The position numbers and the translations under genes were made by a program. DNA of 64,000 nt from Sipunculus nudus (lineage: Eukaryota; Annelida; Sipuncula; Golfingiida; Sipunculidae). The DNA lies in assembly GCA_026874595.1 (NCBI GenBank), contig CM049320.1:25024214-25088213 (forward strand), in the 5' to 3' direction. The notes under the pieces were generated by a model. The model made no database searches and had not been told where the DNA came from. It was given only the letters and a program-made list of their open reading frames with translations. Within the stretch, counting starts at the first letter, position 1. Every line of letters begins with the position of its first letter. This document shows positions 1 through 47,284 of this stretch, piece by piece.

Positions 1-78
1 TTCAGCTCACTCACCGTCTGGCAAAAGAGAGATAGACAATGGAATATTAGATTCGACATGTGGACTAACGCTCTTTAA
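1..78 (+). CDS. Array copy A: last exon (exon 4) of a DUF4440/SnoaL-like gene, 5' part outside window
   Basis: The window opens in the acceptor TTCAG (1-5). The coding exon is 6-78 and ends with TAA at 76-78. With the two bases left by a preceding exon 3 (AA) it reads N-S-L-T-V-W-Q-K-R-D-R-Q-W-N-I-R-F-D-M-W-T-N-A-L-stop. At 73 nt it matches exon 4 of every other copy in the array. The segment is the C-terminal strand of the NTF2-like fold, with the W-x3-D-x-x-W spacing that is typical of DUF4440/ketosteroid-isomerase-like proteins. Exons 1-3 lie upstream of the window. It is closest to exon 4 of copies E and F (SLTVWQKR...DMWTNAL), so it probably belongs to that subgroup. Whether this copy is intact cannot be judged from here. 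Confidence 0.8.
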   Translation, partial: FSSLTVWQKRDRQWNIRFDMWTNAL

Positions 79-2290
79 AACATTTCAAGACCATAGTTGG
101 AATCCTGATTGCTTTTATAGTCCAGAAATCTTTTTTATATGTGTCTCTCCGATATTACCTCGGTTCACTAATGTTGAACAGACACGAACACTCTTTCACA
201 TGAAGATTATTCTAATCTTCTTTAGAACGGTCTTTAGCTTAAACCTTCTTGTTTGTTTTGTACACCGCATCTTATCACATGGTATCTTTACTTGTATGGT
301 ATTCTTCAGCAAGGTAAAGGATCTACCATAAGTAAATAGGTTTGGTAAGGTACATTCAGCTTTACACAAAACATACCACGATTTCTAAGAAGTGCACATA
401 GGTAATACACCGAACCCCCCCTGGGGCGGACAGTCAGGGGACTTGACGATATGTCCGTTATAGCGGGGTTTCTACCCAAGGAGGTCCGGCTGCAACCACA
501 TGTCGAAGACCCAAGAATGGGACTTCAGCAACAACGAAAGCCTGTATTTTTCATATAAAATTTGATCTTACATATGTTAAATTATAATATATGAATAAAA
601 TTAATTGCTATAGGTTGTTGTTTTATTTTTCTTTTGTGGAAAAAGGATTTTAATATTAACTGGAATATTATCGTTATGACTTGTGAGAAAATAATGTTTG
701 AACATTGACTGAAATCAAAAAGACTGACTAATCTCGGCGTATACATTTCGGCACTGGCTCTGTAAAATTTCTTAAAACCTCACTGTTTCCGTGATATTAA
801 AATAATCACCTATGGAATAAATTATTTTCTGACATCTCTTTTAAGTTGTCTATTACGTCTTTCGGGATCGTAAGCAAATATGATAAAGAAATGATATTAT
901 ATATGCCTTATGATTGGTAGGTGGGACTAATTTTCGTGATGCAAATGTTACAGAATTGAATGAAGGGGATTGATTGATAACGTTAAGCCCCCGACCCGTG
1001 AATGTTACGTCTGGGTTTGTAACAGCTACGGCATTATCCTCGATCCAGGGCCTATGATATAATAAAGTGGCCCGAATTCAGAATGAATCGTAGCTTCACT
1101 TAACGCTCGACATAATAGAAACTCCGTACTGATATGGGCACTGCTTTTGATAAAAGGATACATAAATATTATTCCACCTGAAAAATAAGGTAAATTGAGC
1201 AAAACTAGCTCCGGTTTTATAGTCATTGCGAAGTGCCTAAATTATAAGAACATGCCAGACATTAAAGATACACACACATTTGCATAGATATGCGTATAAT
1301 CTTACTTGATTAGTTAAAAACCATCTTGGGCAAATGGGCTTTCAATCTCCAATTTATCTAATATATACGTTGTTATGGTTTTGTGTGTGAGTAAACAACG
1401 TCCACGTGTCTGTTTACCTGAACAACGTGACTAAAAGTGCGATATTGTGCAAAGCCCAAACTATGAAAAACATGATAGGAAACATAAAGGAAACAACGAT
1501 TAAAAGCTTGCAGAATATTAAGCTGTGATGATGGCGTGCGCGAATGTTCATGGTTTGCGTCACTAATCGCCCCTGGTGCAAAGTTTTCTTCCCCTTTGTG
1601 TACAGGAATACGCAAACGAGTTTGTATCAATATATTTCAAAGGAGAAAACATACATAGTATATTTCATGTGTATTTCTGCCTTAACATTAACGTTTATAA
1701 CCCCCTTTTTACGTAATAAACCAAAATTAACAAATTCTATAGTAATTTTCATAGTAACTAAGGAATTTTAGTTAATTATTAATTCGCAGGTGAGTTACTG
1801 TGGTGTGGTGATTCACTTCTTCTGTTCAGTGATATAATGATTTCCCCAATATATAACCATATCGATTTGATAATATGTGAACCAAGCTTAAATAATAATA
1901 AACCAGGTGAAATTTGAGTTTTAATTTGGTCCCGACTGACCATTTTACGATATGTGTAAACACTGCAAATGTTAGTCGTTTCTTTGTCTTTTTTTTGTAT
2001 TTATGTTATGGGTACTTAACTTTATTATCCCTACATGATACACAAGAAATTATATCTAAGAACTTCAAACATACAAAAAAGACAATGGCACAATTTATTA
2101 AATGTATTTTAACGGTCGATGAACTACCCTTCACGCTTCGTAAAGATCTAATTTACTCTCAGGATAATGACACGGTGTGTTTAATTGACATCTTTGTTTA
2201 TGACAGAACATTTTGTGGCCGGCCCTGAAACTCAACTGTAAGTTAAGCAATTAGGCTAATGAAGAGCTGAAGGATTTTGTGTGGTAGCTT
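79..2290 (+). other. Spacer between copies A and B; no gene seen
   Basis: This is AT-rich sequence with only short unrelated open frames and no exon-like segment with family resemblance. A GC-richer patch at about 410-500 (CCCCCCCTGGGGCGGACAG followed by a TGTCCGTTATAGCGGGG motif) looks like a piece of a dispersed repeat. A related TCTATTGCGGGG...TGTCCGG fragment lies near 47400-47440. Confidence 0.5.
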
Positions 2291-2291
2291 G

Positions 2292-2417
2292 ATCTATAAT
2301 TAAGGAGCGAAAGAGTGTAAGGACCTGCGGCTGTTTCCTTTAGGGTTGAAGAGACAAATTGCACACAAGTTCACCCTTCCGTAGAGTTGGTTCACTAGTT
2401 ACAAAATGACCACAGAA
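2292..2417 (+). pseudogene. Orphan relic of an array promoter plus exon 1
   Basis: A TCTATAATTAAGG box starts at about 2292, and an ACAAA-ATG follows at 2406. The 114-bp spacing falls within the 111-123 bp seen in the other first-exon modules. The following bases, ATGACCACAG then AAAGGTT, align with copy B (ATGACTACCG then GTAGGTT), but the donor GT has become AA. No exon 2 follows before the intact first exon of copy B at 4696. It is best read as a decayed extra first exon. It could in principle be an alternative leader of copy B using the shifted donor AG/GTTATT, but that would change the phase. Confidence 0.4.
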
Positions 2418-4440
2418 AGGTTATTGGTATTTACTCCATTGTTCTCCGATACAGTGTTTCAGTGATATTGATTGACGTTATTTTGTTGGTCATCTTATGT
2501 ATAAAACTTTGCCAAATATAAGAGCTATTTATGTACATGTACCGAGTAACCATGTAACCATGAACCCATTTAGATTGATTATTATCCTTGGTATTGTGGA
2601 TATCATTACCTGCAGAAACGGCAGCTTATTTCAAGGGGGATGTCGGAAGGTTAAGGGCAGACAATATGTATCTTTTTCTTGAATTTCGATACTGGCAAGT
2701 AACAATCACATCTATTTCGACAAAATACAACAGTAAAACAATAAAGGGAAATGTTTCAAGAATGTGTATGAAGATTTGTATTTTCCACTATGTTTCCTGT
2801 ATGTTCACCAGTCCAAATTCCAAAGGTGTGAAGTGCTTTTATTTATGCTTTATATTTCCCTATATCAACCACAAAATATTCCAGACATTTTACTGGTTTA
2901 ACCCAAACGCATACATAATGAAACTTTTTTGTGAAACATAAACCTAACGCCTACCAATTTTATGAAATGTTTCTCAGCAAAACTGCTCCATGTTGACATG
3001 AAAACATTTTCATAGCCTAGAAAGCCTAGATGAAGAATAGGAATTCTCGGTTACGGCAGATGTTCTAAAATCAGTGATCCACCTTACATTCCCTGTTGCA
3101 GCTTCGTATTTTCTTGCTTCTATCAGTGTGCACTTGGAAAATGTTCAGGCCTTTCATGACCATGCCGTGGGACGGATCCACTGTGCTAACCACAGTGAAC
3201 ATCCCTATAAACAAATGTATTTATTATGTTTTGATAACGCACGCGCACACAAGCAGATAAAAACTGTAACATTATACATATACAACTGAAAAAACAAACA
3301 AAAACATTAGATAAGGGAAGATTTCAATTCGGGACATCAAATGGTTTTCTCTTTGTTTATGAGAATACGCAGCAGTTTTGGTAACAGGGCAATCTGTACC
3401 AGTAACTTGATCTCCGATTGGTCTTTTCTGCCCTTGTTGATAAAGAACAAAAGCTGTTGGAGTCAGTTTCTCATCCAATTTTATGAAGTATGCTGGTGAT
3501 TATAAATCCATGCAAATGAAGTCGGGTTTCCAGAAGAAAGTTTGGGGTACACTGTTCTTAAAAGACCATGTATATCTATTTCCCGAAAAACCTGCATTTA
3601 CTGTGATTTTTTTAAGTCCCTTTGTAGAAGACACCTTCTGACATTGTCTCTTCAGGTTGCAGTGCCCCGTGTATGCTATTTGCACCGTAGGTCTGCATGG
3701 CCATTCGAATTTCCTTCTCACCTATCCGGCAAGCCTTGTATTATCTTTATTCATAGAAATGAATCTGCAACCATTCTTGCAAATGTGTATAGGATGATAG
3801 GTCTAAAGTGGTCAAGGCGGCGTAATTCTCAGTGTCTCAAAGGCAAAATGGCCTCTGTACATCAGATTCATTGTCATTCATCAGACCGGCCCAACGGTAG
3901 GGCACGGGTGGTCTCTCCTAATGACCTGCGATGTCACATAGAATGTGCCACGGGAACTTTTAAACTACATGTGTTTTCCCTTTTAATAGCCCTTTTGATG
4001 GACACATTTATTAATATAGCATTCAAGGCGTACCGTAGTGTTAATATCATGCAATGACGACGTAGTGACGATCATTATAGTTTCGTCTACTGCTTGCCAA
4101 CCAGACAGCGGCTAACTGGTAACAATTTTTGTAAGACGACAATGATGTCAGAGCTTAATGCATCATGCGGAAAGAGTGAAACTTTAAAATATTCTACATT
4201 ATGATGTAGACGGATCTGTACAGCTAGCGACACCTGTCGAAGAACATTGAGATTTATGTGGCACGGGGGTTTCGGTAAATAATACAGTTTATATCACATT
4301 TCATCTTCTAAGAATGATCATTTTATCTGAATGTCATTTTTTTGCACCTGTTTCATTTTAAAACCGATACTTTTGATGAAAATTATGGAATCAATCGCAT
4401 TGTGAAATGTTTTTTTTTAACACAAGATCTCATATTTCAA
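2418..4440 (+). other. Spacer upstream of copy B; no recognisable gene
   Basis: The longest open frame here (3542-4057, 171 codons from a TTG) has no recognisable domain, no family resemblance and low-complexity composition. It is not called as a gene. No repeat of high identity to other parts of the window was noticed. Confidence 0.45.
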
Positions 4441-4695: not shown

Positions 4696-7140
4696 ATGAC
4701 TACCGGTAGGTTGCTACTGTCTCTTCGTTTTGTGCTGGGTTTAAACTTAGCACGGTTAACTTTGAATTAATTTAATCAGTGGAATAGATTTACTTTTTTA
4801 CAGTCGGTTTCATATTATTGTGCATTGTTTAAGTATTTGATAACCCTCTCAAAGCCCACCTTGTTCAATCAGTAATATTATTCTTTGGATTATTAGACAG
4901 AGCTTCTGTACGAGGAAATTACCCAAAAGGGTTTGCTTAAATATTCAAGAGATGTCCGACCTACAGTTATATATTGGTCACACAATGGTGAACTTGCGAG
5001 CGTCCGTCTTTATGTCGGTTGTTGGCAGCCTCGAAGAACAAATTGCGGAAGGTTTTATAACATTATACAGTGAAATTGCAAATAGCCTTAAGCATACGGC
5101 AGTGACCCTTTTACATCAGATTTCTCTCTGGTTTGTTTATAGGATCGACTCAAGGATATGGAAAAGAAAGTTTTAAAATATAACCTCGGGACTCATTCAC
5201 CTGTGGGGTTAAACCTTCGTGAGCACATTATCATATTTGCGGTATACCATTTGCCACATAAACAATATATGCTCGTATATGGGAACTTTTCTGTACTGAC
5301 ACATGTCTGCTGCAGTACCGTGAACATATAAACCCAGGACCAAGTGCGCAAGGAATTCCCTAATGCATGTAGATCTCTTCCTGAAAATCAATCCAGGGGC
5401 AGCTTTCACCAATAACATAAACCTATCATACAGGGAAACATATACTTCAATTTTTCTCTGTCATCATGGGATCAAACTGCCAAAACCTCCCAAAAACCCA
5501 ATAAATCCGTTAATTCCTCTAATACCCCACTAGTCTGGATAATCTGATTCAAACCTAGATTAGGATCCGTCAAACACAAGCAAATGCATGCTCGTGGGAA
5601 TGTATAATGTTGGACGTATAATAACATACAGCTGCATAATGCTCATCTGAAGGAAAAAAAGCAATACTTTAGTTTTTAGGACATTAAGCCGTTATATGTC
5701 TGTAGAACGTTGTATTGTAAGGTCTTCTCATTGTGATCTTAACTCTTCGGAAACTCTAGTCTGTTAAATGCATACGAGTTCGCGTGTAATTACCCAATAG
5801 ATGATGCATTCTGTTTCTGCATGTATTTGCTATTTTTTTCTGTTAAATTGAGCCATTCACTTGTCATACCTGTACAGTTCATTAATGAACTTTGCAGTTG
5901 TTCATTAAAGAGACAGTGTTTATAACGCCCGTTTTGTCGAAGTTTGAGCTTTATTTTGCCTTCACATTGTTACCAAGCAAAGTACAGGTTGGAAGGTCAC
6001 AAGTTGGTGAGAGCAACATTTAGTGTTTTGTCATTTAAAAATTATGGTTCGTCTGATATGGAGCCAGATATCTTGGCTGAACATGTTTGGTCACAAATAT
6101 ACAATCGGCGGCCATTTAGACGGCCCCTAGATGTTACAAACACGTTAATGTAAAACGGACAGTTTCTGTACTGTGGGACGAGCGCGTGTTGTCTAACTTT
6201 ATCAAAGATGCAAGCGAATAAAACGGCCTGCACATGATAACTTTGGCTCTAGGCAGAGATATCAGGTTTTACTCGACATGGAGTATGCTTTGGTTTTATT
6301 GTTTATCGTCAATTGTATAGTTCATTGCTGACTATCAACCTGTTTCCATGTTACCGTTAGACATATGTAAACTAATGCAAGCAAATATCAGAAGGCAGTG
6401 GATGTGTTTGACGACTCCCGAATCATGATTTTTTTTGCAGTTGATGAGGATAAGCAGCAGATACTTGAACGTATCCAGATCTTCATGAAGCTCTATGCAG
6501 AAGGAGACGTGGACGGTTTGGCCCAGATGATTTACACATCTGACTGCGTCCTCATGCCACCCGATGGGCCCACATTACACGGATCTGGTAAGGTCTATAT
6601 TTAACTAATATTTGAGAGCCGTTATAATTTGAATCAGTAGTAGTTGAAGAAGAAGGTGTTGTCTCAGGAGCCATCCCAAAAACCAAGACCTTTTATTCAC
6701 ACTAATATCGCTTTTTGTTTGTAATCCATTGGGAAATTTGGGTTTTTCTTCCACAATAATGCTTAAATGTTTGAGCCACTAAGTTGGTCGACAGAAAGAG
6801 CTAAGTGATATTAATGTTGGCTCTTTAAACCTAAATCAGAATAATTAATCTTAAATGGTCACGCTCTTATGCATGTTATTTATATTGTGGTATTTGTTTT
6901 TTGATGTTTAAACATCGGCAAATATATCGTTGTATGTATCTTTTATGGTTTCTCGGATTAAATTATGAAATTTCTCAACATTGGAAGCATGTTTCTTTAA
7001 CACTGGCACAGCGGGAGCTACGCCATGCGATTTTTCTTAAATTGTAGTAGAGATAAAAAGTAGTGTTTTGTGTACCCCTTGTTAAACTAAAAGAACAAAA
7101 ATATTATTTCTAATCTGTTCACATGTTCGGGAATTTATTA

Positions 7141-7192
<52 letters not shown>

Positions 7193-10100
7193 TATTATGA
7201 TAAAATGATAATAAAAAATAATATTAAACACTGAATTATTATTTTTTTTTTTAATTTGTAAAAAAATATAAATTTGAAATATTCAAAATTTAAAAGTTAA
7301 TGAAGGTAAATTAGAACAAGAATCAGTAGTTGTAGTAGTATTAGTAGTTGTGTTAGAAGCAATCCTTAAAAGCAAGAAGTTTTATCTACCCTAATATCGC
7401 TTTTTGTTTTTAATCCATCGGTAACATTTGGTCTTTCATTAACAATAGCACATATTTATGAGCCAATAATTTGGTCGAATGAAAGCACTAATGAATATCA
7501 ATTTTGGGCTACTTAAACCTAAATCAGAATATTAAATCTAACATTGTCACACCCTTATACATGTTATTTATATGGTAGTGTTTTTTTGTTAATATTTTAA
7601 ATTGTGGCAAATATATCGTTGCGTGTGTCATTTTAAGGTTTCTAGGATTACAATATAAAATTTTCTCAACATTTGAAGCATTTTTCATTGACTCTGACAC
7701 AGCTGGAGCTAAGTGTGGCGATTTTTCTAAAATCTTAATAGAGTTAAAATATGGTGCTATGTGTACTTTTCGTTTAAATAAAAGAAAAAAAAATTCTAAC
7801 TTGTTCAAGAATTTGTCATAATTCTTTAAATTATTATTATTATCATCATTATTATTTTTAATTATAATATAAATGATAAATCAGAATAATATAATTATAT
7901 ACTGAGCAAGTAAAATATTAACTTTGTTAAATTAAAAAAAATATATAAAATATACAGAATTAAAAAGTATATGAGGGTAACGTATAATTTGAAACAGTCG
8001 TTGTTGTTGTAGTAGAAGTTGTGTCAGGAGCCATGCTAAAACCAAGAAGTGTAATTCGCACTCATATCTCTCTTTGTTGGTAATCCATTGGAACCTTGGG
8101 TCTTTCATCTATATAAACACGTATCCCAATATTTAAAGCAATAATTCATTCTTTGCATACAGAGGTGAAGAATTACATTCGCAACTCTGATGTGAAGAGA
8201 TACGTCTCGGAAAATATTGAGACTCTCAAGGAGGGGAACATGGCCATATCACGTGACCGTTTCACCGCTTATTACGCCGATGGTAGTATGGCTAGCAAAG
8301 GAAAGTAAGTGACATAAATTTCGATTATTACTTGAATTGTTGAGTAATGATATTCTTATTCACACTGCCTTAACACAGGATACAGCTTATTGGGTATGGA
8401 ATATCATCCAATCATACACACACATATAAACACTAAAGCAATGCGCGGGGCCCAACCTGCCCTGCAGGCCAAAATTAAATTTTCGCGTGCGGACTCAAAA
8501 CTAGGATACGCGGGGAGGGCATCATGATATTTTATTGCGGGTTTCTATGGACCGAAAACATGGTTATCGAGAGGAGATTTATCTAAATGTAAAGCATTAC
8601 AGGTTTGTTTATAATCCTTTGGTTATTCCATTTTCTGAATAACTATATTTTACATGTGAAATAAAATCCCTTAGTTTTGAGACCGAATTATCTGTGCAGT
8701 GACTACTGGTGAGAATATTGTACAAATATACCTGGCAAGAGTGTTGTATATTTAGGCCCTGTATACCTATATATTTGAGCCAGTCTCAGATATTACATAA
8801 CATGGCTCAGGGTAGAGCACCAGGATGCTACTTGCGATCGTATAATGGCCACTGCATGTGGTACAGCTGGCTCTTTCACCAGTTGGATATAGCTTTACAA
8901 ACCCCACAAAGATAAATGTGTGCCGATCATGGATGCGCCAAACAGGATTGGCAAGTTAAGAGAAATTCATTGGCAAAGCAGAATGACACAAATAACTTCC
9001 CGCTCATTTGATATCTATTTCTGTGTACACTACCATTAAATGGAACAGTCCCCCCCCCCTGCAGAACCATCGCCTTCCCCCCTTTTAGCTGATCATTACT
9101 GAACAGGATTAATCTCTTTGTAAACAAAAATTGTGATCTGTGGTGCGCTGGTACAGCTGATCCAACTTGTGTTGCGTAGTGTAACTCTAGGCATACAAAC
9201 TGAATAAAAGTTGATTGCTTAATGCTTGAGTTTTTTTTTTAATTTCCGTATGTGAGAATTATGTTGTTGAATATTTGTTCTCGAGGTTTTTCGTTTCACG
9301 ATAATTGTGAATTTAGAGCGAATATCAATCCCTCGGGATAAAGATGCCTCATAAAATTAAATGAATAATGATGCATCTGCACAAACGATCTAGTTATCAC
9401 ACAAAACTAGATATTTGAAAACATGGTTCGATAATCATCAATCTAATCTGTGCATGGTTTTGGTTCTGGCCTGTATAAATACATTGATTAATGAAAATGT
9501 TGATTAGAGGTAAATTAATAAATGTATGTAGTCGACTCTGACACAGGGCATAAGATAGTGACTGTAACATATATTATTTGGTATGGTGGTATTTATTTTC
9601 AATTATTAGTTAACACCAATACTGTCTTACTCAAATTTTATAGGTTCGGGTGGTTTTGCGAAAATTAAAGCCTTGCGAAACGTTCAAAATCATGAATTCG
9701 CGAAGTTTAGCCTCGCAAATATAAAGCCAACCACAGTATGCATAGAAACTATGTTTAAACTTTAATTAATTAAGTTGTAAGCTAAATATCACAGGGGCGT
9801 CTCCGTTACTGACATTTCCACATATATGGCAGTAAATAATTGTATTTTGGGAGGTGGTAATTTTTAAATTAAAAAATGATACTTGCTAAAATGGTTAACC
9901 ATAAATATATGAAAATAAATCATATATTTTTTTAGTTGGTTTCCTTTTTGGTTGTCCATTTGGTATTTTAGGGGGTTGAATGCGGGTAGGGGCGGGTGCG
10001 GGCTTTAAGCTTTATGTGCCGGGCGGATGTGGGTAAATTCATTCTATAAGGGGGCGGGGTGGTGCGGGCTGCATTATCACAACATCGGGGGGGGGGGGGG

Positions 10101-10905
10101 GGTTGTTTTGCGGGACGGGTGCGGGCTCTTACTTCCGGCCTGCGCAGGGCTCTAATATACACAAACACATACACGCATATATAGTAATTGCCTCGTTCAT
10201 TCTGACGACTTTACGTCTTACAAATAATATTTATAATCACTGATGCCCACTTCATTTATAAAGACACACGTTTGATGCATTGTAGTCAATAAACCCATTT
10301 CATTGCCTTCGAAAGGAGAGTATGCGTTTATTCCCATTCGTGTTTGTATGTTCATGACATTAATCACTTTGTAATGAAAGGGAGCTCATGAAATGGTCAG
10401 GGTACTTCGTGAATTGGAAAAGAATGATTCGATTGGATTTTGACGTGGCCTCGGGTTCGGGCGCGTCATCAAGATATACGATGATATGCACGAATGAACC
10501 CGGAAATATGAGGCAAACATAAGTGAATAAAGACAGGGTCTAGCCTCATGCGCCGCGCAGTGTTTCCCGGCAACCTGTTCAGGTCACGGTCGAGCGCCGA
10601 GCACCTCGGAGTGATGGTTTCCAGTGGTTTTCTCCGGTACACTGTTCTGAGTTTGGTCAAACACATGTCAAATAGCTTCTATCAACAGAGACCCTCACAT
10701 GGCGGAGGCATGCAGTCATTGGGATGCAGATTTATAGTTTATATATACAAGGAGGTCTATTGTTTATCCTGACGCACTTTATGTATCGAGATACTTCATA
10801 CATTTTCAATTTTAAATGTATTTTTTTTTCAGCAACCTCGGCGTCTGGATAAAGAGTGATGGACTATGGAAAGTGAAATACGACATGTGGACGAATCGTG
10901 TTTGA
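4696..10905 (+). CDS. Array copy B: DUF4440/SnoaL-like (NTF2-like) small protein, four exons
   Basis: Exons are 4696-4705 (ATG ACT ACC G), 6441-6587, 8163-8304 and 10833-10905 (TGA at 10903-10905). All junctions are GT/AG and the phases are 1, 1 and 2. The product is about 123 aa. Exon 2 gives VDEDKQQILERIQIF then YTSDCVLMPPDGPTLHGS, the helix pair and first strand of the NTF2-like fold. Exon 3 gives NSDVKRYVSENIETL, EGNMAISRD and YYADGS. Exon 4 gives NLGVWIKSDGLWKVKYDMW. No signal peptide or membrane segment is present, so it is probably cytosolic. Family members bind or convert small molecules, but the substrate is unknown here and no catalytic residues can be assigned. Intron 2 contains an internal segmental duplication and intron 3 a GC-rich patch. 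An in-frame ATG at 6398 runs straight into exon 2 and is a weaker alternative start. Confidence 0.75.
6640..8162 (+). repeat. Segmental tandem duplication inside intron 2 of copy B
   Basis: A stretch beginning with GTAGT-rich sequence and a CAGGAGCCAT motif, then CTAATATCGCTTTTTGTTT and later TTTCTCAACATT, occurs at about 6640-7320 and again at 7321-8000, with an offset near 689 bp. The first part recurs a third time at 8001-8160, just before exon 3. A single unit is the normal end of intron 2 in other copies, where CTAATATTGC-like sequence precedes exon 3 (see 16185). The intron was therefore lengthened by duplication of its own tail. Confidence 0.65.
7135..7197 (+). repeat. (ATT)n microsatellite
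   Basis: About twenty uninterrupted TTA/ATT trinucleotides sit in the first unit of the duplicated intron 2 segment of copy B. The matching place in the second unit (about 7828-7860) has only a short interrupted ATT run. Confidence 0.95.
9649..9739 (+). mobile_element. Fragment of a TIR element related to the one at 62359-62797
   Basis: The sequence carries GGTTTTGCGAAAATTAAAGCC, TTCGCGAAG and AAAGCCAACCACAGTATGC. The last motif matches the right end (CAACCACAGTA) of the complete element at 62359-62797. No matching left end was found, so this is a truncated copy in intron 3 of copy B. Confidence 0.5.
9970..10140 (+). repeat. GC-rich patch with poly-G run in intron 3 of copy B
   Basis: GCGGGTGCGGGC-like motifs occur three times around a G homopolymer at about 10087-10102, in sharp contrast with the AT-rich surroundings. 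It looks like a degraded repeat insertion. Open frames here come from base composition. Confidence 0.45.
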
Positions 10906-13018
10906 AAGAGAGGAGGTTTCAAGACCGAAGTTGAAATCATGGTTGACTACTAAAATCCAGAAACGCTTTCTATATATTTTTCCTGTTATGTCACGGTGTG
11001 TTTATTACAATCGAACACTCTTTTGCAAGCATTTTTTCCATTCTTTAGAATCGGAAGGCACAGTTCATAGCTTAAAATTTGCTTTGCTCTTTAACACATA
11101 TTAACAATACGTTTATATACGGCTATTAAAAGAGCAAGGTACAGGTATCTGCGTTCAGTAAATACATTTTCTACAGTACAATACCGTTTTACACAAAATA
11201 TGTCAAGAATTCCAAAAATAGTACGTAGAATATATTATTCGGAATAAATTTATCATGAGTGATTATTCATCCCGTTTTTTATCGTGCTTTCAATCAGAAC
11301 TACAATGATCAATTTTCTTTATGCCGTTTCCTCATCAGGTTATCCTTTCACATCCACACACAGGCTCACTTCGCCTATAGAGTATTATTCGCATTTCAGT
11401 TATTTGTTATATACACCTATATGACATGTTTGACTGAATATGTAGTTAAGCCTACATACCTCCACCGAAAGCCTGTGTTAACTTTCTTGTGGCCCTACGT
11501 ACACTACACATTTTTAGCTTCTTTCGTAAATCGTCTAAAGGTGGAGCGTCCAGGGTGACTAGTAGACAAAGTTATCGCTGTAGCTTCCGCTCAAGGGAAA
11601 GCAGGCCAGAAAGGTTCTCATATGCGGATCTCTATTGCAGCATTATTTGTCAGAGGGATGATATTGGATGAGCATACAATCGTGAAAGAGGGGTTGTTTG
11701 GTGTCTTACAGGTGTTCTTACCTATGGTAGAACGATTCCCTAGGCCCCCTCCAACATTCTTCAGACACATGATATCTTCCCGAATGCACAGCGTATCCTT
11801 TACGCCTGATTTATCCGTCTGGTAAACAACCCCCTCCCAATATCTATTTGCCGATAACCATATTTTTGGCTTGCTTCATATATGTAAACCATTTCATTAT
11901 AGTTCATTTTATAACCCCTGTTCGATCCAGGGTATCGAATAGAATGCTCATAGCATACGTGTGTTTTACACCCCAACGGACATGTATAACACCAATCTCG
12001 TGGTACTCGGATGTATACATTTTATACGACTCTTCGTCCAGACCCATGTTCAAATAACACAACTTTTCACACAAATGAAAAATAATTTCTGATTTGATTT
12101 AACCTGATAACCCATATGGACATATAAGGTAGACTATAAGGTCGACTGACCTCCGACTCATAACGTTGAAGTGTCGCTGATAACATTTTCCGCTTACACT
12201 TATATGGATATTTTGATAATTTATATGATGTATACATAATAGATATTTTGATATACCGGAGATTCAAGATAAATGTAATGCGTGAAGTCACCAAATACGT
12301 ATATTAATGATTAAACGTAAACAAATCCGTAAACTGCCGCGTTACTGGCGGCATCAGCCTGCAGTGAGGGGTGTAAAGTCTCTTTGCCAAACCCTCAAAA
12401 TCCCCTTCTTAAAAGAATTATGTGTATCGAAAGCCGTAAGGGCTGCTCATTCTCGTCAACTAATATTTTTAATAATAAGCCACCTTCAACATACTTCCTG
12501 CATTTTATTCTTTCGATAATGGTACATAAACTAGATAGGGTATGAGCATAATTGATGTCACGCGCTTCCTCTGGTCACGTGACCTAGGTACGGGGATTAT
12601 TGGCCAGTTTAACAGGTAAAAAATAGACAGAACTCTCGAAGGAAAGTATTCGATCACTCTCTTGCTTATGATGGAAATAATAATATTTAAAAAGAATCTG
12701 GCGTGACATCAAACGACTTTATCTTCATCTTGACATATGTCACCAAAAATTAATCCGTAAGCAGTGGCCTTTCATTGATTAATTGCAAAGTGAATGGTAT
12801 TGTAAGGAACGTGCCGAAGGAATTCAATCGAGTTGAGAGTCAGATGCTTGACTAGGTGATTGAAATTCATAGTTAAATCGATACAAATCGAGGGTTAATT
12901 TGTTACGCTTAGACCAAGGATTTAAAAACGAAATACGCGAGTGTTCACTATTAAAGCTGCCATTTATCAAAATAGGCAAGGAGAATCATTATATATTTGG
13001 TAAAAACATTTATAATAT

Positions 13019-13695: not shown

Positions 13696-16555
13696 ATGGC
13701 TACCGGTAGGTCGCTACTGCCATATTGTATTGTGTAAGATTTTTACACAAGGTTTCATGGTTATTTAATTGTATTTTATGCAATGTGTACATATTACCAA
13801 TACAGTAGCTTTATTATTTATGATGGTATACTATGGAAGAATTCAAAAACCCAATTATAATCCCCCTTATGTTAACCAGTGGTTGATTTCTAAATGCAGG
13901 CTGTGCCTGTAAACATTGATATCACGCACTAGCATAATTAAAAAGATTTCTTAAACATGGGAATTACTGTTTATACCACAAGGGTTTGCTTAAATATTGT
14001 GTAGCAGTATTTGAACATTTTTTAAAAACAAAATTAATTTACAAACAGTCTCTCTTGTTTAAATCGATTACGGTATTTCCTTTATCAGACGTCCAGGCGT
14101 TTATTTTTTAGACTCTGCTTTCACCCGGGTCTAAACAAGGCGGGCTTCAATTTAAGGCCGGCGTTTATTTTAAAACTACATTATCAGACTCGTCAGACAA
14201 AAAAAGGAACACATCGAAACAAGTAAAAACATTACTTGTACATTGATGGTGTTTACGAAATATCCTTAGATGACATAGGGATATAGGACACGCACAATAT
14301 TTAGAATCACGCACCACAATAAGATTTTACGGGGAATCACAGCGAGAGATTTTGCAGTTATTCACAGAAATCTGTCCGCGCGGGCCTCTCAAAACCAGTG
14401 TTTCATATGGCTGTTCCATTTATTTTACATCGCAGCAGTTGGTAACGTTTCCCTCTGAACACGGGGTGTTCATGGTTTTAATATAAGAAGGTAGCCCTAT
14501 ACATTCTGGAGCCAATACAATGGAGCTAAAACAATATTAGCCAAGACAATTCTTCATACAATAAATTACACCATATTGCATTGGTGCAGGATTCAATACC
14601 TGCGCCATACAAAAAATACTCTTACAGGTGGGTTTACGTTGAACAATATAATTTATTTGCTGCACCATGCACTATCAGTAAAACTGCTTTATCTGCTAAT
14701 AGGGCTGATCCCTAGGTTTGCGTTATTAATATTGCACCGGATGTCTTTTTTCTTTAATTATTTGTGCTCGATAAATCTATCAGATTTAAATAACATTCAA
14801 TTTCATTATTTGGCAACAATCGCACCTGGAAGTTTTTAATCCGTAAGTTTTTAAAGCAACGCCCAACGTCGAGTTGTACAATATCCCTTCTTCCTGTTAG
14901 CATACACCCTTAAAAAGACATTGGGCTCTTCTGTGGGGGATCCGATAAGCAGGTCGGAGAATCGAGGTTAGCGCAGTTTGGGTCTAGGAGTGTGAAGGTG
15001 AATAGACAGTTAAGAACCACTGCAAAGAAAGTTTTCATAACGACTCTCTTGGTTTTAGGTCCAACATATTACAGCACGTGGATATAAAACGGAGAATCTT
15101 ATACTGTGTACTGTGGGATACGAACTAGATGACTTATTTCTATAATATTTCGAGCGATTTTCCTAATGGTACACCCATTTTACACATAAAACCGAATTAG
15201 CACCTTTAAGTTTAAACAATAATCACCTGCACATGATAAAGAACTATTACTCCTAGGAGAGACTTTAAAATTTACTCGATATGACTTTACTGAAACTCCT
15301 CCAGAGTTCAGTACTTTGATGTCTTTTAACTTCATTTCATGTACAGATACATGTTATTTAAAGCAGCCACATTTCAGTTTAAGGACTTCATGCTTCATTA
15401 TTTTTTTCAGTTGACGAGGATAAGAAGCAGATACGTGAAGGTGTCCTCCTGTTCATGAAGCTGCATGCAGAAGGAGACATGGACGGTCTGGCAGAGAGGA
15501 TTTTTACATCTGACTGCGTCCTCATGCCACCAGACGGATCCACAATACACGGATCTGGTAACGTCTCTTTATTAATGACTAAAATATATTCATTTAGTTA
15601 GTCAACTGAAATAGCTCATGAATATTAATTTTGGGTCCCTATACCAAATCCAGAATATTTGATTTTGCGTGATCTGACCCTTTCACATGCAGTTTATAAG
15701 ATGGTGTCTGTTTATTCTACGGGGAATATATCTTTGTAAGTGGTTTTGTACAGGTTCTCGAATTATAATGGCGATTATTCTGAAAATCGGAAGCATTTTT
15801 TTTTATTTATTACTGGCACAGCGCCAGCTAAAGCTTATATTGTCTGTTTAAAGATAACTAAGTAAACAAAATAAAGGTTTCTGTGTAAATTTTGTTTAAA
15901 TAAATAAAAGAGTTAACATTTCTAACTCTTTCACATTATTGGAAAAATATAACGATGGTGATTATTATTATTAATATTAATAATAAGAATATAAATTATC
16001 AATATTATAAATGCTGAAAATTAACATTCATAATAATAGTTCAATAATAATAAATGAAGTAAAAATATAATTTAAATTATTATTATTAGTAGTAGTATTA
16101 GTAATAGTATAAATAGAAGTTGAAGTAGTACTAACAGAAATACTCTCCTAGGAGCTTTCCTAAAATTGAGAAGTTGCCACTAATATTGCTTTTCGTAGGT
16201 AATCAATTCCTAATATGGAGTTTTAGTCTACGTTTTATCTACACTTATACCAATATGTTAAGCAATTATCAAATCCTTTTCCTTCAGAGCTTAAGAATTT
16301 CTTCATCAACTCCGATGTGAAGCGATACGTCACGGAAAATATTCAGACTCTCGTAGAGGGGAACATGGCCATATCACGTGACCACACCACCGGTTTTTAC
16401 GCCGACGGAAGCGTTTATAAGAAAGGAAAGTAAGTCACAAAAATAATTTATAAACGTTGATTTTTAAATACATATAATGATAATCTTTTTCTCACTGCTT
16501 ACGCACAGTATATAGCTTGACGGTACGGGAATACTGATTCAACCACAAACAAACA

Positions 16556-16598
<43 letters not shown>

Positions 16599-16802: not shown

Positions 16803-17009
16803 ATGTGCTTATCGACAAACATTTTATCCAAGAATTTATAACATGTCACTTTACAAGGATATACTCTTTACCATTAACACACTTTCCATCTCGAGATGTA
16901 TTGTCAATTGTATTAATTGAATTTTAATTTCTTCAGCGTTCTCTCCGTATGGCTAAAGAGAGATGGACAATGGAAAGTGAAATTCGACATGTGGACGAAC
17001 TCAGTTTGA
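13696..17009 (+). CDS. Array copy C: DUF4440/SnoaL-like small protein, four exons
   Basis: Exons are 13696-13705 (ATG GCT ACC G), 15411-15557, 16288-16429 and 16937-17009 (TGA at 17007-17009). The coding length is 372 nt, giving 123 aa, with the family phases 1/1/2 and clean donors and acceptors. Visible segments are VDEDKKQIREGVLLFMKL and TSDCVLMPPDGSTIHGS in exon 2, NSDVKRYVTENIQTL with EGNMAISRD and FYADGS in exon 3, and VLSVWLKRDGQWKVKFDMW in exon 4. With copies B and F it is one of the array members with every element present, and it is the most compact. It is predicted soluble, a single NTF2-like domain filling the whole protein. Introns 2 and 3 carry AT-rich and microsatellite sequence. 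The biochemical role is unknown. Confidence 0.8.
16557..16802 (+). repeat. (CA)n followed by long (TA)n microsatellites in intron 3 of copy C
   Basis: A CA run lies at 16557-16587 and a TA run at about 16728-16802. Confidence 0.95.
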
Positions 17010-30370: not shown

Positions 30371-30591
30371 ATATGAGCCATGGAAAGTTGCGCCATTTGT
30401 TATAAAAACTATTTGTACAATCCATGTAAAATAATATTTAATATTAAATACATTCCACATAATTTTATCAAAACCTGTTCAATACGTTTTGCCTGGAGTT
30501 GCTAAAGGACATATCACTGAAGGAGAACAGCTCCAGGCCTAGATATAATAATCATGAACACCAATTTTGATACTTTTATTTCCTTTTCATT

Positions 30592-30668
30592 GTTTCCCTA
30601 ATCGTCTCACAAAGGCGAGATTGACATTGGTTCACGAGTCTCCATATGTGGACGTAGGGTCTTTCAAA
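30592..30668 (+). pseudogene. Extra decayed exon 4 downstream of copy E
   Basis: TTTCCCTAATCGTCTCACAA, GGCGAGATTGACATTGG, ATATGTGGACG and GGGTCTTTCAAAG follow the order of exon 4 of copies E and F (TTCCCTTACCGTCTGGCAAA, GAGATGGACAATGG, ACATGTGGACG, CCCTTTGAACG). The tryptophan codon TGG has become TCA and the frame is broken. The flanks before and after match those of the second relic at 43846, so both derive from one ancestral duplicated unit. Confidence 0.55.
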
Positions 30669-31167
30669 GCGGGATTACTACAACACTTGCACATACAAAC
30701 AATTTCTTGATTCTTGGTGTCCCCTGTTCCCTGATACCACCCGACCGCAGTTGCATATCTTCTAATTTTTTTTTTCAAACCCAGTTGTTTCAGTCCTGTT
30801 TATTGAGACGTACTGTATATTTAAAATATGAAAGATTAATAAGTAAAAATTTCACTTTTTTTCCAGGAAGATATTGAGTTGGGGAGACGTTTGGGATGAA
30901 TTATTGAAAAAATATGTTGACTCACTTATGGACCGGCATCATATACATTAAACAAAAATGTACTCCTCCATCAAATTTTTTAATGTTTTTTTTTTATCGT
31001 AAGAAGGTCTCACATCCTCACAGCCTTCTCCATTTTATGAAGTAACATTTTAAGTTAACCTTCAGGTTCGATTAAACGAGGGTTATCCATGAACTCTTGT
31101 AGAACATTTATTTCTTGTCCCAACATGTATCTCTGATAAAATATGAGATCAGATAATTGGCCCTTAT
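30669..31167 (+). other. Spacer downstream of the exon-4 relic; no gene
   Basis: The AACCCAGTTGTTTCAGTCCTG segment near 30779 recurs near 44009 downstream of the sister relic. Nothing else was recognised. Confidence 0.4.
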
Positions 31168-31572
31168 CGTCACGGATAACAATAAGAAGTTCTATCAGAT
31201 TTTTCATAAAGTTTTTATATACATTGTATATTTATTGATCATGACTTTTTATCTGTCCCTGAAAACTGGTATCTATTTTTAATACAATTTCCTCATAATT
31301 TTAAGACTGTCATATCGATTCGATGCATTATGTTTCGCAACTGTAATTTCGCCCAGTATCCTGATAACTGACGTCACGGATAACAATAAGAAGTTCTATC
31401 AGATTTTTTATAAAGTTTTTATATACATTATATATTTATTGATCATGACTATTTATCAGTTCCTGAAAACTGGTATCTTTATTTAATACATTTTCCTCAT
31501 AATTTTAAGACTGTCATATCGATTCGATGCTTAATGTTTCGCAACTGTAATTTCGCCTAGTATCCTGATACC
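31168..31572 (+). repeat. Tandem duplication, two copies of about 204 bp
   Basis: CGTCACGGATAACAATAAG begins both copies (31168 and 31372), and TTTCGCAACTGTAATTTCGC followed by AGTATCCTGATA ends both. The copies differ by only a few substitutions, so the duplication is young. Confidence 0.9.
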
Positions 31573-35056: not shown

Positions 35057-35567
35057 ATGGCTACAGGTAGGTCGCTCTAAAGGTTTCCTTTGTTTGTATT
35101 GTGTCATTGTTATTCATTAAGACTCATTTTCATGCATTGTGTGTATGTCATAATACAGTAGGTTTATTATTTCAGATCAGTTTTATATGTTGTGTAAGTA
35201 TTTGAATGCAGGATTATGCCTCCTATTACTCATTTTATTTACTATCGTGTACTATGGTTTGGATAACTGAGAGGTTTTCTTTTACATGAAAATTAGTTTT
35301 TATTAATTACTACCTCCAATTCAATTTCCCAAGCGAAAGGACAAGGTAAGAGATATTTGAAATAATGGGCAGCTACGGATTAGATAGAGGGGGTGAGTAG
35401 CAAAAATACATATAAATCATTAATGATGTTGATATAATCAAACATGCAATTATTTCTTGATATTAAACATGATCTGAGATAGAATGTAAGTATTTCATGA
35501 CATGGTATTGTCTATGACATAGATAATGTGATACGGCTCCACTCTTCATTGAAATAATAAAAAAAAG

Positions 35568-35622
<55 letters not shown>

Positions 35623-37197: not shown

Positions 37198-37240
<43 letters not shown>

Positions 37241-40200: not shown

Positions 40201-41699
40201 TACTGCCACAGGCCTTAGACGACATAGATAGGAATGGGTACCATTAAGTCTAATCAATCAAAGCCTGAGCACGATAAAAACTTTAACTAGTAGCAGGGAT
40301 TTCAGCTTCAATCGACATGGAGTATACTTCGGCTTTACTGCTATTCCTTTATTGTCTAGTACATTGGTGTTTTTCAACCTCCTTTCTTCTACAATTAGAC
40401 ATAGGTAACTCAAGCAGCCACATTTCATTTTTAAGGACTTCATGATTCATTATTTTTATTAGTTGACGAGATCAAGCAGCAGATACGTGAAGGTATCCTC
40501 CTGTTCATGAAGCTGCATGCAGAACAAGACATGGATGGTCTTGCCCAGAGATCTTACACATCTGATTGCGTCCTCATGCCTCCAGACGGACCAACAACAC
40601 ACGGCTCCGGTAATATTATCTTTACACGGTAACCATTTAGTAACTTAACGGGATCAGCTCATCGATATCAATTTTGGGTCCGTATCACAAAGTCAGAATA
40701 TTCGATTCTACATGATCAAACCCTTACACATGCACTATATATAGTCGGGTGATTTTGGTCTCGCTTTAAAACTCTCAGGCTTATGTCGTTGTATTTATGT
40801 TTACAAAGGTTCTCGGATTATAGTAAGGATTATTTTCAAAATTTGGAATCAATTTATTTCACTTTGTGTCTGTCGGGTTCTGTCTAAAGTTTAATAGCTA
40901 AAAAAAGTTAAAGCAAATGTGATCTGTGTACCTCATGCTTAAATAGCAGTCTGAATAAACAAGTTAAAATTTTTGAAAAACTATAATTTTTTGTACCTGA
41001 TTATCGTTTAATGTTGATTAGCCATTGCTTCTATGGGGTTTTATTCTACATTTTCTCCTTATGTTTATAAACCAATAATCTATTCCTTTGTCTTCAGAGC
41101 TTAAGCAATTCTTTATAAACTCGGATGTGAAGCGATACGTCACGGAAAATGATGAGACTCTCGTGGAGGGGAACATGGCCGTGTCACGTGACAACTTCAC
41201 CGCTTATTACGCCGATGGAAGGGTCGCTGGGAAAGGAAAGTAAGCGAGATAAATATGATTTTTTTATTGTAAATGTGAAATAGCGATATTCTTTTTCTCA
41301 CCGTCTGCACACAGAACATGGATTTATCGGTATAAATATATTTTTCTTGCATCGTTCATTTTTTATTGTCAAAAATGAATCTGCTATTACACTCTATTAA
41401 AATCACTCACTCTAACCTAAATTACAGAAACCTGTTATTTGCTTGAGTATCTAAATCAATAAACCCATTTTTAGATCATTTTAACGCATTCTATCGAGCA
41501 ATTCATAAGCTTATTGAACTTGATTATTAAAGGAGATTCACTGTTTATCATAGGCACACTTTATATCGCGAGATATATTGTCAATCATTATCGTAATTAT
41601 TATTGTATGGATTTTAATTGCTTCAGTTCCCTTACCGTCTGGCAAAAGAGAGATGGACAATGGAAAATGAGATTCGACATGTGGACGAACGCCCTTTGA
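35057..41699 (+). CDS. Array copy F: DUF4440/SnoaL-like small protein, four exons
   Basis: Exons are 35057-35066 (ATG GCT ACA G), 40463-40609, 41098-41239 and 41627-41699 (TGA at 41697-41699). All junctions are canonical and the product is 123 aa. Exon 2 shows VDEIKQQIREGILLFMKL and TSDCVLMPPDGPTTHGS. Exon 3 shows NSDVKRYVTENDETL, EGNMAVSRD and YYADGR. Exon 4 shows SLTVWQKRDGQWKMRFDMW. Intron 1 is unusually long (5.4 kb) because it contains a 2.3-kb TIR element (35997-38294) and a dispersed repeat (39301-40177); without them it would be close to the other copies. The full set of splice sites and the open frame suggest a functional gene. The insertions could lower expression, but the sequence alone does not show this. 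Confidence 0.78.
35570..35619 (+). repeat. (TA)n microsatellite in intron 1 of copy F
   Basis: A pure TA run. The matching place in copy E (about 27484-27490) has only GTATATATAG, so the expansion happened after the duplication. Confidence 0.9.
35997..38294. mobile_element. Nonautonomous DNA transposon with 13-bp terminal inverted repeats
   Basis: The left end CACTGTTAAAAAA (35997-36009) is the reverse complement of the right end TTTTTTAACAGTG (38282-38294). Flanking sequence in copy F (GGCTTTGATTCCA on the left, CAATTCCTACACTAGGCGG on the right) aligns with uninterrupted sequence in intron 1 of copy E near 27870-27900 (GCTTCGATCCAAGTACCTGCAATAAAC in part), so the element is an insertion. 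The adjoining 8-mers TGATTCCA and CAATTCCT share five positions (ATTCC) and may be a decayed 8-bp target duplication. The interior (2.3 kb) has a poly-G run at about 36219-36240 and a TA run at 37199-37239. No transposase frame was recognised, so it is probably nonautonomous. The superfamily is undetermined. Confidence 0.75.
39301..40177 (+). repeat. Dispersed internally repeated element, copy 2 (intron 1 of copy F)
   Basis: It starts with ATTAGCTTAGCTGACTGAAA then GTCATCTGAGC (imperfect hairpin) and TTGTCCGTCGTCC. It ends with CCAGCTGAGCGCCATGGCC and AATGGGACACTTGTTA. Inside, units of roughly 130-220 bp recur (TCCGTTAACAG, TTGGACTTGAAATTTT, TATTCTCTGAGCTATG, CTGCAGATTA.TGGTGCCACCT). The ends match copy 1 at 21318-22256. 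Confidence 0.65.
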
Positions 41700-43298: not shown

Positions 43299-43840
43299 TA
43301 CAAAACTTAGAAAAATTGGTATAGAAAAATTTAAATAATTTTTAGTACAGCATTTGTGATCACATGTCAAAATATAAATACATCAGTTGGCCTATGTGCC
43401 TTATTTTTGGTATTATTTCCAGGAATTTTGGTTACAGCCTATAGACATCACGTCATTTTTACATCAGGTCAAAGCGCTTGTAATAAAATAAACAGATTTA
43501 AAGCTGTTACCATAATTTGATATGTAATAATCAAAATGTATAACTGAATAAAGTTTATATCATTCGATTCACCTAAATGTCCACTTCAACTTACAAAATA
43601 TGATTAATTGAAATGTGGTCACCCTATCCTGTTACAGAAATGAATAGCGGTCCACTTATGTGAACCGTTACCCAGACTACCATCAGAGTTTAAAACTTTG
43701 TTACATTTCACATATTTAAAAAAAAAAAAATTAAAATTCGTTCATTACTTTTTTCTGAGGCTGTTTACAGACAAACTAATCATTGAGAACGGCTCCTGGC
43801 GAAGGTATGTAATCATGAACACATACTAGTATTTTAATTC
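41700..43840 (+). other. 3' flank of copy F and spacer; no gene
   Basis: The first 600 bp parallel the flanks of copies A and E, so the duplication unit includes them. The remainder is AT-rich with a tandem repeat block (43095-43460) and no coding signal. Confidence 0.5.
43095..43460 (+). repeat. Degenerate tandem repeat, about four units, one expanded to (TA)n
   Basis: Units begin GTGAC or GTGAT at 43095, 43179, 43247 and 43356. Units 1, 2 and 4 continue with TCATTTCRAAATATMAATA-like sequence and TATGCCTTATTTT. In unit 3 GTGACATTA runs straight into a TA microsatellite (43254-43296). Confidence 0.6.
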
Positions 43841-43845
43841 TCTCG

Positions 43846-43918
43846 ACTCCCAAATCGTCTGGCAAAAAGGGAGATTGACGTTGCTTGACGAGTCTCCAAA
43901 TGAGGACGTAGGATCTTT
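43846..43918 (+). pseudogene. Extra decayed exon 4 downstream of copy F
   Basis: CTCCCAAATCGTCTGGCAAA, AGGGAGATTGACGTTG, CTCCAAATGAGGACG and AGGATCTTTTCA follow the exon 4 order. The tryptophan codon TGG (43860-43862) survives, but the frame is altered and the DMWTN segment is lost. It shares relic-specific changes (GAGATTGACRTTG, GACGTAGGRTCTTT) with the relic at 30592, so both came from one already degraded ancestor. Confidence 0.55.
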
Positions 43919-46224
43919 TCATGTGTGAAATCATGTCTTAAATCTGTAAAGCCCCGGTTCTCTGAAACGGATAACATCGACCGCTGTTGCACATCTATTT
44001 TTTTTTTCAAACCTAGTTGTTTCAGTCTTGTTAATTCAGACGTACCATGTGTTTTAACTAATCTCTAATTTTCGAATATCATTAATATTCCCCAAAAATG
44101 CGTTACCATGGTTATAGAAGATTTTAGACAGCTACACATTAGAAAAACGGCCACTGAATGAGCTACAGTTTATGAGGCTTCGAGGATTCTGGAAGAAGAC
44201 ATGAAGCAAAAAAAAAAAAAAAAATAGCAGTTTTGATGACCTTGAACTGCGATCTATATTGACGTCCAGTACTTTTGATTATCAACTGTGTAAGTTTGAA
44301 TTGGGTTGCTGCAAAACTGTGGCTTGTAGAGTGGAGACAGACAGAAAAATATATCCAAACAGACAAAGAGATATACCCAACTGACAAATATGCTAGCCGA
44401 ACCCAAAGATTTCCGGCAAGCATAAACACACCAACTCATAGAAATTACCATTATGTTTGCCGGCAAGCTCCACACAGACATACGGAACTAAGTAACATGC
44501 TCGTCGATATCGAATATTTCCGGCAAGCGACAATAGCACAAAATCCTAGCTTAACGTCAATATTCATGAATCATTGATATTCGTATATTGTTAAGTGGGA
44601 AATATGGTTACATGGGGATATAAATTTGTACAATAAATTCCTGTGGAACAGGGATTTTTTTTTGCTGGCACTTAATTTTCTTGATTTTTATCGGTGGCGT
44701 CTCATCTTGAAACGATGGACGTATACAGTATATGGTAATGGTTTTCTGTAGTAGACCTACACTATGCAGGAATATGATATTAAGTATACGGGCAAGTTTT
44801 AAACGTAAATCTGTATACGGATAATAGCGAATAGTACGTCTTTGAATTTAACTTTTTCTATAAAAAGGAAACAGTCATAGTTATATTCAGAAATTTGTCA
44901 TATGGTAAGTGACAAGGAGATATCGATTAGTTAGATTGGAAATTACATGCAGTTATGTAAGCAACACGAAATGACGAAGACGCTTTTAACTTGAACATGA
45001 CTATACATGTTTAAGATGGATATTACAAAGCACTAATTAGTTCATCTCTCAATACTTGAAACAGGTTTTGTATAGATATTATTTGTTGACACTCCAAGAC
45101 GTCGCGTAGGTGATTGCGTAGGGTTAATAAAAGCATTACTGTTTATCGCATTACTGCGCACTATTAACCCTGTTGGGTCAGGTTAATGCATTTTATTTAA
45201 CATCGTGAAAAAAGTATGGTTACCTCAGGCAGATTGTGAAATATACGTGTTTTGAAGGTCGGTACCGAAACATGAACGCTCGGAATTTCTAAACAAAATG
45301 ATAGGGCTAACGCAATTATTCATATGTCTTCAATTGGTTTATCGGGACCTGTAATGGACGTTCCGTCTCGCAGCATAAATTATTTTCAGACCTTAAATTA
45401 AATTTTTATTTGTAGTGTAGGTATTCGCCACCACCCCACCCATTTAACGAATAAATAACAAATCTTAACTTGTACGTTCATGCGCAGAATTCAATTTCAA
45501 TATGAAACCATTTGACCAGTCAGTAGCACACGCTTCCGATCAAATTTGTTCGGTGTTAACAAGCCCCGGTCTGGTAACTAACGCACCCGCGAGTCCCGGT
45601 TTAAAATACTCTACCCGATAAAGCCTCTAATGGAGAAGGCTCAGGTAACTGCTGCATTACTTCTGAAACTGAATACGTGAATAGCCAACCGTCTTAAACG
45701 GACCATGATGTCTGATATCTGTATCGAAAGTTGAAAATATTTTTTTGTTGGCTAATGTAATAAAAGGAAGTAGCTTTGAAAATACCTGTAAATAGCACGA
45801 GTGTTTGACCGTGTCTGGCACAGAATATCAAATATTACTGACAAAAGCACGTACATTCATAATAAAGGAATCGAAAGAGAAACTAATCTCCCCCCATCAG
45901 AAAACCTACTGGTAGCACTGGTAAAAGCAGGAAAGGAATTAAATATTTATTTTATTTTAATAAATTTATCAATCGAAACAAATTTGTTTCATACCGTGTA
46001 CAGTGACATAATAGCCGCATTAAGTTTACCCCTTCCCCATAAGTCAGTTCCCGGATAATACATCGACATTAAACGGAAGTAACACTAGCTTATATACAAT
46101 CAGGATCGTCATATACGAAAGGCAGGGTTTTCGCTTGTTCTTTTAAACGTTTGATAACTATGAAGTGAACCAATGAGAAAACCAGACCTTTCATTGATTC
46201 TAAATACAGTTTTTCTCATATCCT
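43919..46224 (+). other. Spacer between the F relic and copy G; no gene seen
   Basis: Overlapping open frames on both strands at 44163-44577 shadow one another and show no domain. The 45000-46200 stretch has no array exon and no repeat that I could match within the window. Confidence 0.45.
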
Positions 46225-47284
46225 TAGGTAATTTTCCGAATACACAAAATATGATGCTTCTGTGAATGTGTGTCACTGGTGTCCTGAATATAGTAATACA
46301 CGGTAAACCAAGAGGCTCGTATGCATACCAAGCCGTTCTTCAGCATACCAATTCTTATGAGCCAGTTCTATAATTATCCAGTACAAACGGATACCTGTAC
46401 TGCTGCACGGCTAGATATCACAGTGTGATTTCAGAACTTGCCCGGACGTAAAGCGCCAGGCCATCAGAGTGATCCTCCGAAAACTAAACGGCTTCAAGTA
46501 GGTTCCTGCTGTGGTTTTCCTGTGCTTGTTTGGTGCTAGGTTAAGACAAAACGTGTCATGGTTATTTATTTAGACACGCCTTTTTATGCAATGTGTATAT
46601 GCCATAATACAGAAGGTTTATTGTTTCCGAGTTAATTTTTTTTATGTGTTGTGTAGGTATTTTTTGAATGCAGATTATGCCTCCGATTTGCTGATATCAT
46701 CCACTATTGTGTTTTATTGTGTTGATAATTGAGAGGTTTTTCTTATATATGGGAATTAGTCTTTATTAATAACTACCTCGAATTCAATTTCCCAAACAAC
46801 AGGACAAGATTAGAGATTTGTTTTTAAATAGTGGGCAGCTTGCGGTTCGATAGAGGGGTGGGGGTGGATAGCAAGAAATATTTTCAAATCATTTTTGATG
46901 CTGATATCCACAAACATGCATTGTTTTCTCTATATTACACATGCTGTGTAATAGAATGAATGTGTTTCATAACACGTTAGGATCTATGAAATAGAAATTG
47001 TGAAACCGTTCCAAAATAGTAAACAGTAAAACAATGTTGTATATATGGTAAATTTGCGGGTTGGACACAGTTAAAATTAAGGCTTGGCCACAGGAAGGTC
47101 TCATACTAGTCTTATGAGTGTAACACTTGCATGACCCGTGTTTATGCCGTTTGGTGGCAGGACCGAAGACCATAAGGCTATTTAATAACGAAGTCACAAA
47201 ATTAGACGCAAGTGTAAAAGTTAAATGAGACCAGTTTATCGAGGACTGAAGTAACTTTATTTACACATGTTAGGTGATAATATA
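46225..47284 (+). pseudogene. Copy G: truncated array copy (promoter module, exon 1, start of intron 1)
   Basis: The promoter module is well preserved (TTTTCCGAATACACAAAATA, GTGTGTCACTGGTGTCCTGA, TTCTATAATTATC at 46366-46378). Exon 1 (46488-46497) reads ACG GCT TCA A before GTAGG, so the ATG is lost. The intron continues in parallel with E and F (GATAATTGAGAGGTTTTTCTTATA; TTTATGCCGTTTGGTGGCAG) as far as TTAGGTGATAATATAATTA near 47284. There the similarity stops at a dispersed repeat. Exons 2-4 do not follow. The copy was cut either during duplication or by the insertion. Confidence 0.7.

Follow-up and report, generated by a model that had tools for sequence, protein, structure and literature searches.

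A tandem array of small DUF4440 genes with a 10-nt first exon, containing intact and apparently broken copies, in a 64-kb window of Sipunculus nudus

The DNA analysed here (the window, 64,000 nucleotides) very probably carries a birth-and-death tandem array of small DUF4440 (NTF2-like) genes, this degree of confidence being meant for the array and for its family. In our best reading it would be an ordinary gene cluster of the standard birth-and-death kind. Motif and tblastn scans of the 64-kb window found seven units on the same strand (A to G) and one inverted outlier (R), all belonging to one family. This agrees with the original prediction, which had proposed a tandem array with an inverted outlier at 60–62 kb; R is indeed on the minus strand and is a family member. 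The A to G units are adjacent same-strand paralogues that have their introns and flanks in common, as is expected of a tandem gene array. Three of the eight units (B, C, and F) are intact, four (D, E, G, and R) are apparently broken, and A is truncated by the window edge. The three peptide motifs said to be shared by the proteins (SDCVLMPPDG, EGNMA(I/V)SRD, and DMWTN) were all found in the motif scan. When the copies were compared with one another by tblastn, E values as low as 8e-25 were obtained from single exons. These values, along with the counts of the exon-1 motif against simulation given below, exclude chance as the source of the array.

Exons of 10, 147, 142, and 73 nt with phases 1/1/2 had been reported as identical in B, C, and F, and this was exact when the splice sites were read from the sequence. 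All introns of the three copies are GT-AG, and the frames are open and encode 123 amino acids each, the stop codon being counted in the 73 nt of exon 4. The genes span 4696–10905 (B), 13696–17009 (C), and 35057–41699 (F). The exons would be joined as modelled, on the basis of predicted splicing. Only exon 4 of A is visible because the start of the window cuts this copy. The exons are placed as follows.

6..78, plus strand: copy A exon 4 (73 nt, stop included), by motif and tblastn
4696..4705, plus strand: copy B exon 1 (10 nt, M-T-T plus 1 nt), by exon-1 motif and splice model
6441..6587, plus strand: copy B exon 2 (147 nt), by splice model
8163..8304, plus strand: copy B exon 3 (142 nt), by splice model
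10833..10905, plus strand: copy B exon 4 (73 nt), by splice model
13696..13705, plus strand: copy C exon 1 (10 nt), by exon-1 motif and splice model
15411..15557, plus strand: copy C exon 2 (147 nt), by splice model
16288..16429, plus strand: copy C exon 3 (142 nt), by splice model
16937..17009, plus strand: copy C exon 4 (73 nt), by splice model
35057..35066, plus strand: copy F exon 1 (10 nt, M-A-T plus 1 nt), by exon-1 motif and splice model
40463..40609, plus strand: copy F exon 2 (147 nt), preceded by a 5.4-kb intron 1, by splice model
41098..41239, plus strand: copy F exon 3 (142 nt), by splice model
41627..41699, plus strand: copy F exon 4 (73 nt), by splice model

It may be noted that in intron 1 of F about 4.2 kb (about 35943–40188) separate two blocks that are close neighbours in E, and this segment is probably an insertion. 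Intron 2 of B contains overlapping, diverged direct copies of ~800 bp (75%) at 6631–7439 and 7320–8108.

A block of ~190 bp around exon 1 was found once each in B, C, D, F, and G and twice in E, that is, seven times. The exon-1 motif of F with its borders, searched with up to six mismatches, gave seven matches on the plus strand (F itself counted) and none on the minus strand, and 30 order-2 simulated plus strands of the window gave two matches in total. From these comparisons the 10-nt first exon is accepted as real, since it sits in a conserved upstream block present seven times, against two matches per 30 simulations. The strict pattern of ATG, seven nucleotides, and GT[AG]AG had no match upstream of exon 2; unit-to-unit comparison gave GTAGGT as the actual exon-1 donor. 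B, C, and F retain both the ATG and this donor, and each of D, E, and G lacks one or the other. Hence, exon 1 is whole precisely where the remaining exons are whole. One further stretch is a weak candidate.

2286..2425, plus strand: candidate relic of exon 1 or its upstream block, by nhmmer (E 0.0072)

The other copies were damaged in several ways. D begins with ATA; its exon 2 retains the acceptor AG but has no donor, its exon 3 has no acceptor, and its exons 3 and 4 carry frameshifting indels. Exons 3 and 4 of E, claimed to keep their size, do so (142 and 73 nt). The claim that R keeps exons 2–4 was likewise borne out (147/142/73 nt), yet exon 4 of R has an in-frame TAG, which replaces a Trp conserved in A, B, C, E, and F. 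For R, two exon-1 candidates were found, against a chance expectation of about one (hand estimate). Downstream of G, exons 2–4 gave no tblastn match with E below 1 on the plus strand in the rest of the window. An inverted exon 2 (relic X), two exon-4 relics, and the doubled exon-1 block in E come in addition to what had been listed earlier. That block, upstream sequence together with exon 1, is doubled in tandem at 26473–27259 on the plus strand, and the donor is missing in both.

12312..12476, minus strand: relic X, inverted exon 2 with broken frame in the B–C interval, by tblastn (E 6.7e-6) and blastn (6e-9 to C)
19732..19741, plus strand: copy D exon-1 slot, ATA start, donor GTAGGT retained, by exon-1 motif
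20915..21060, plus strand: copy D exon 2, acceptor AG present, donor GT gone, end approximate, by tblastn and alignment
22540..22680, plus strand: copy D exon 3, acceptor gone, frameshifting indels, ends approximate, by tblastn and alignment
23069..23142, plus strand: copy D exon 4, 74 nt, that of C plus 1 nt (frameshift), by tblastn and alignment
26700..26709, plus strand: copy E exon-1 slot 1, TT instead of the donor GT, by exon-1 motif
27108..27117, plus strand: copy E exon-1 slot 2 (tandem), donor gone, by exon-1 motif
28256..28387, plus strand: copy E exon 2, 132 nt (in-frame deletion of 15 nt), by splice model
28861..29002, plus strand: copy E exon 3 (142 nt), by splice model
29415..29487, plus strand: copy E exon 4 (73 nt), by splice model
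30577..30687, plus strand: exon-4 relic downstream of E, by blastn (4e-9 to F)
43829..43919, plus strand: exon-4 relic downstream of F, by blastn (2e-7 to F) and nhmmer (1.4e-11, outside the training rows)
46248..47286, plus strand: copy G, with upstream block, exon-1 slot (46488, ACG for ATG), and part of intron 1, by comparison and nhmmer
60192..60264, minus strand: copy R exon 4 (73 nt), in-frame TAG, by splice model and tblastn
60842..60983, minus strand: copy R exon 3 (142 nt), by splice model
61590..61736, minus strand: copy R exon 2 (147 nt), by splice model
62012..62021, minus strand: copy R exon 1 candidate (10 nt, ATG...GT), one of two, the other starting at 63681

The nhmmer profiles were built from already known copies (relic X was among the sequences used to train the exon-2 profile), and the match at 43.8 kb is the sole independent strong one. 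The two exon-4 relic regions, downstream of E and of F, are 74% identical to each other. D, E, G, R, X, and the two exon-4 relics are probable pseudogenes or relics.

The family had been assigned by eye, and HMM searches upheld DUF4440. All five aligned members matched Pfam DUF4440 (PF14534; best E 1.5e-10), with 30.8–40.8 bits for B, C, E, and F, above the curated cut-off of 25.2; R matches as well. Judged from these profile matches, DUF4440 membership is firm. The match spans most of the domain, which is a single domain of ~120 amino acids, as in the array proteins, and no difference from the profile was visible; the four-exon gene and the array are features of the host genome. The name DUF4440 itself marks a domain of unknown function. 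The SnoaL-like part of the assignment was sustained to the extent that SnoaL_2 (PF12680) matched four of the five aligned members (best 5e-5), but B, C, and F stayed below the curated cut-off (16.5–19.2 against 27 bits) and E had no match when scanned as a single protein. Among solved structures, 3hx8, a putative ketosteroid isomerase, was matched by F in phmmer (E 6.2e-4, query residues 5–117) and by C with E 0.13, and it was absent from the five structure matches of the five-row profile (E up to 1); solved structures thus lend little support. DUF4440 belongs to the NTF2-like clan. DUF4440 membership and the 3hx8 match thus predict an NTF2-like fold, a cone-shaped alpha+beta barrel, for the array proteins.

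We also weighed ketosteroid isomerase activity but did not adopt it. In a weak hhalign alignment (probability 31.6%), the N-terminal half of Delta5-3-ketosteroid isomerase (1opy/1oh0 sequence) was paired with residues 15–58 of F. The enzyme's Tyr16 and Asp40, presumably the catalytic Tyr and the Asp general base, correspond in that alignment to Phe or Trp and to Met or Pro in the array proteins. As the Tyr and Asp are not retained at the aligned positions, this argues against ketosteroid isomerase chemistry, within the limits of the weak alignment.

The N-terminus reads MATVDE or MTTVDE, and besides DUF4440 no Pfam domain scored above its cut-off. The lack of other domains above cut-off and the N-terminus, judged by eye, point to a cytosolic location. 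An NCBIfam profile scan of F gave no match, and one of the five members weakly matched an NCBIfam sigma-70 model (E 0.032); some sigma-70-type factors end in a SnoaL-like tail. No match was obtained in an Rfam scan. The product would be a 123-residue single-domain protein from a four-exon, animal-type gene. That it is a small cytosolic NTF2-like barrel binding a hydrophobic small molecule is a tentative suggestion, made from the family, to which we give somewhat less than an even chance. A binder or a dosage copy would be a likelier role than a ketosteroid isomerase.

Relatives were sought elsewhere. One scan each with two short peptide patterns gave 59 matching stretches in the prokaryotic collection and 21 in the viral collection, and none of these was confirmed as a relative. 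Two weak matches came from a plasmid search, at identities of 28% and 29% and E values of 3e-3 and 5e-3. In literature searches covering few subscription journals, DUF4440 brought up no title about such an array, and SnoaL with tandem and mollus brought up mushroom work only. For SnoaL-like gene duplication in animals, the matches concern plants, fungi, and algae by title. A sponge protein is described as combining IG and DUF4440 domains (PMC4633127).

E and F could be aligned over ~2.2 kb, comprising exons, introns, and 3′ flank, with an identity of 0.72 in the introns and 0.75–0.77 in the 3′ flank. The tree of the upstream block separated B, C, and D from E, F, and G (0.992; A absent from the tree), and that of exon 4 with the 3′ flank separated B, C, and D from A, E, and F (0.974; G absent from the tree). 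In the codon tree, B grouped with C (0.992). Exon 4 and the 3′ flank of A are 86% identical to F and 83% to E. A lies at the left end yet is nearest to F and E, so the chromosomal order differs from the order of descent. Compared with the other copies, R gave a dN/dS of 0.17–0.22 at a dS of 1.6–1.8, which is near saturation, and from this dS it is placed as an old branch of the family. The array very probably arose by repeated duplication of a unit made up of upstream block, tiny exon 1, introns, and 3′ flank. Growth would most likely have proceeded through unequal exchange among units with homologous flanks, and copies would have been lost by deletion and point damage.

When whole genes were compared, dN/dS was 0.45 for B–C, 0.43 for B–F, and 0.37 for C–F, with dS of 0.38–0.48. 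A codon model for B, C, and F gave lnL −919.07 with omega free, against −926.50 at best with omega fixed at 1 (four fixed kappa values). This gain suggests that B, C, and F are likely to be under purifying selection on average. When changes were polarised, the E branch had 15:5 and the F branch 8:2 (nonsynonymous:synonymous), with 17 ambiguous. These nearly equal ratios give no sign of relaxed constraint in E, nor of constraint confined to F. In the E–F pair, exon 3 had the lowest identity (0.796, against 0.909 for exon 2 and 0.918 for exon 4), E being apparently broken.

The array might instead be an adaptive repertoire, each copy having diversified to bind or turn over its own small molecule. 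Of 119 residues compared, 44 vary among the intact B, C, and F, and exon 4 of B–F, alone among the exons of the intact pairs, has dN close to dS (0.30 and 0.29). Moreover, the NTF2-like superfamily includes small-molecule enzymes and binders (PMC3924330). The original prediction had placed the ligand-related divergence in exon 3 loops. However, the variable residues among B, C, and F are spread evenly (16/48 in exon 2, 18/48 in exon 3, and 10/23 in exon 4; chi-square P = 0.71), exon 3 being no more variable than its neighbours, so that this route to ligand diversification is unsupported. The low exon-3 identity of the E–F pair leans the other way, but it involves an apparently broken copy. The whole-gene dN/dS of 0.37–0.45 and the apparent breakage of four of the eight units also count against a repertoire, which we regard as improbable. 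There is an equally small chance that the array is lineage-specific, with B, C, and F (perhaps also A) retained for different small molecules and unequal crossing-over yielding new variants. The logic would be that of detoxification or odorant-binding gene arrays, an analogy that we think unlikely to apply here. With D, E, G, and R apparently broken, turnover is favoured over a growing repertoire.

The apparently broken copies D, E, G, R, and X and the exon-4 relics could also suggest that every copy is decaying and that the working gene is located elsewhere. This is more improbable still, as exon lengths, reading frames, and splice sites are exactly preserved in B, C, and F at the dS given above, and the dN/dS of these copies is below 0.5. 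A working R, in which the TAG would come from a sequencing error or be a rare allele, is doubtful but has a better chance than either, and would be compatible with the birth-and-death array. Its exons 2–4 keep their lengths and splice sites and its pairwise dN/dS is low, though measured near saturation; on the other side, the TAG falls at the conserved Trp and would cut the C-terminal end of the domain, and exon 1 of R is represented by candidates only. The birth-and-death array is thus preferred, with B, C, and F intact and likely under average purifying selection, A unjudged, and the rest probable pseudogenes or relics. Three intact paralogues with common upstream blocks and matched broken copies make a handy system for asking about the ligand and the cause of the duplications.

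The interval between G and R holds other features, for which Pfam was scanned with selected long ORFs only (4 + 9). A C-type lectin domain was found at 50955–51218 on the plus strand (Lectin_C, 2.4e-11). A cysteine-containing ORF at 49780–50115 on the same strand precedes it, PAN/apple-like by eye and without a Pfam match. The lectin exon, perhaps together with this ORF, is likely an unrelated gene. Pieces of a non-LTR retrotransposon occupy 52150–54011 on the minus strand (RVT_1, 2.1e-7, at 53736–54011; zf-RVT, 1e-7, at 52150–52794). This LINE-like element, the lectin exon, and the richness of the genes in introns point to an animal genome. Elsewhere in the window, a 204-bp unit is repeated twice in tandem at 31168–31570, the copies being 94% alike.
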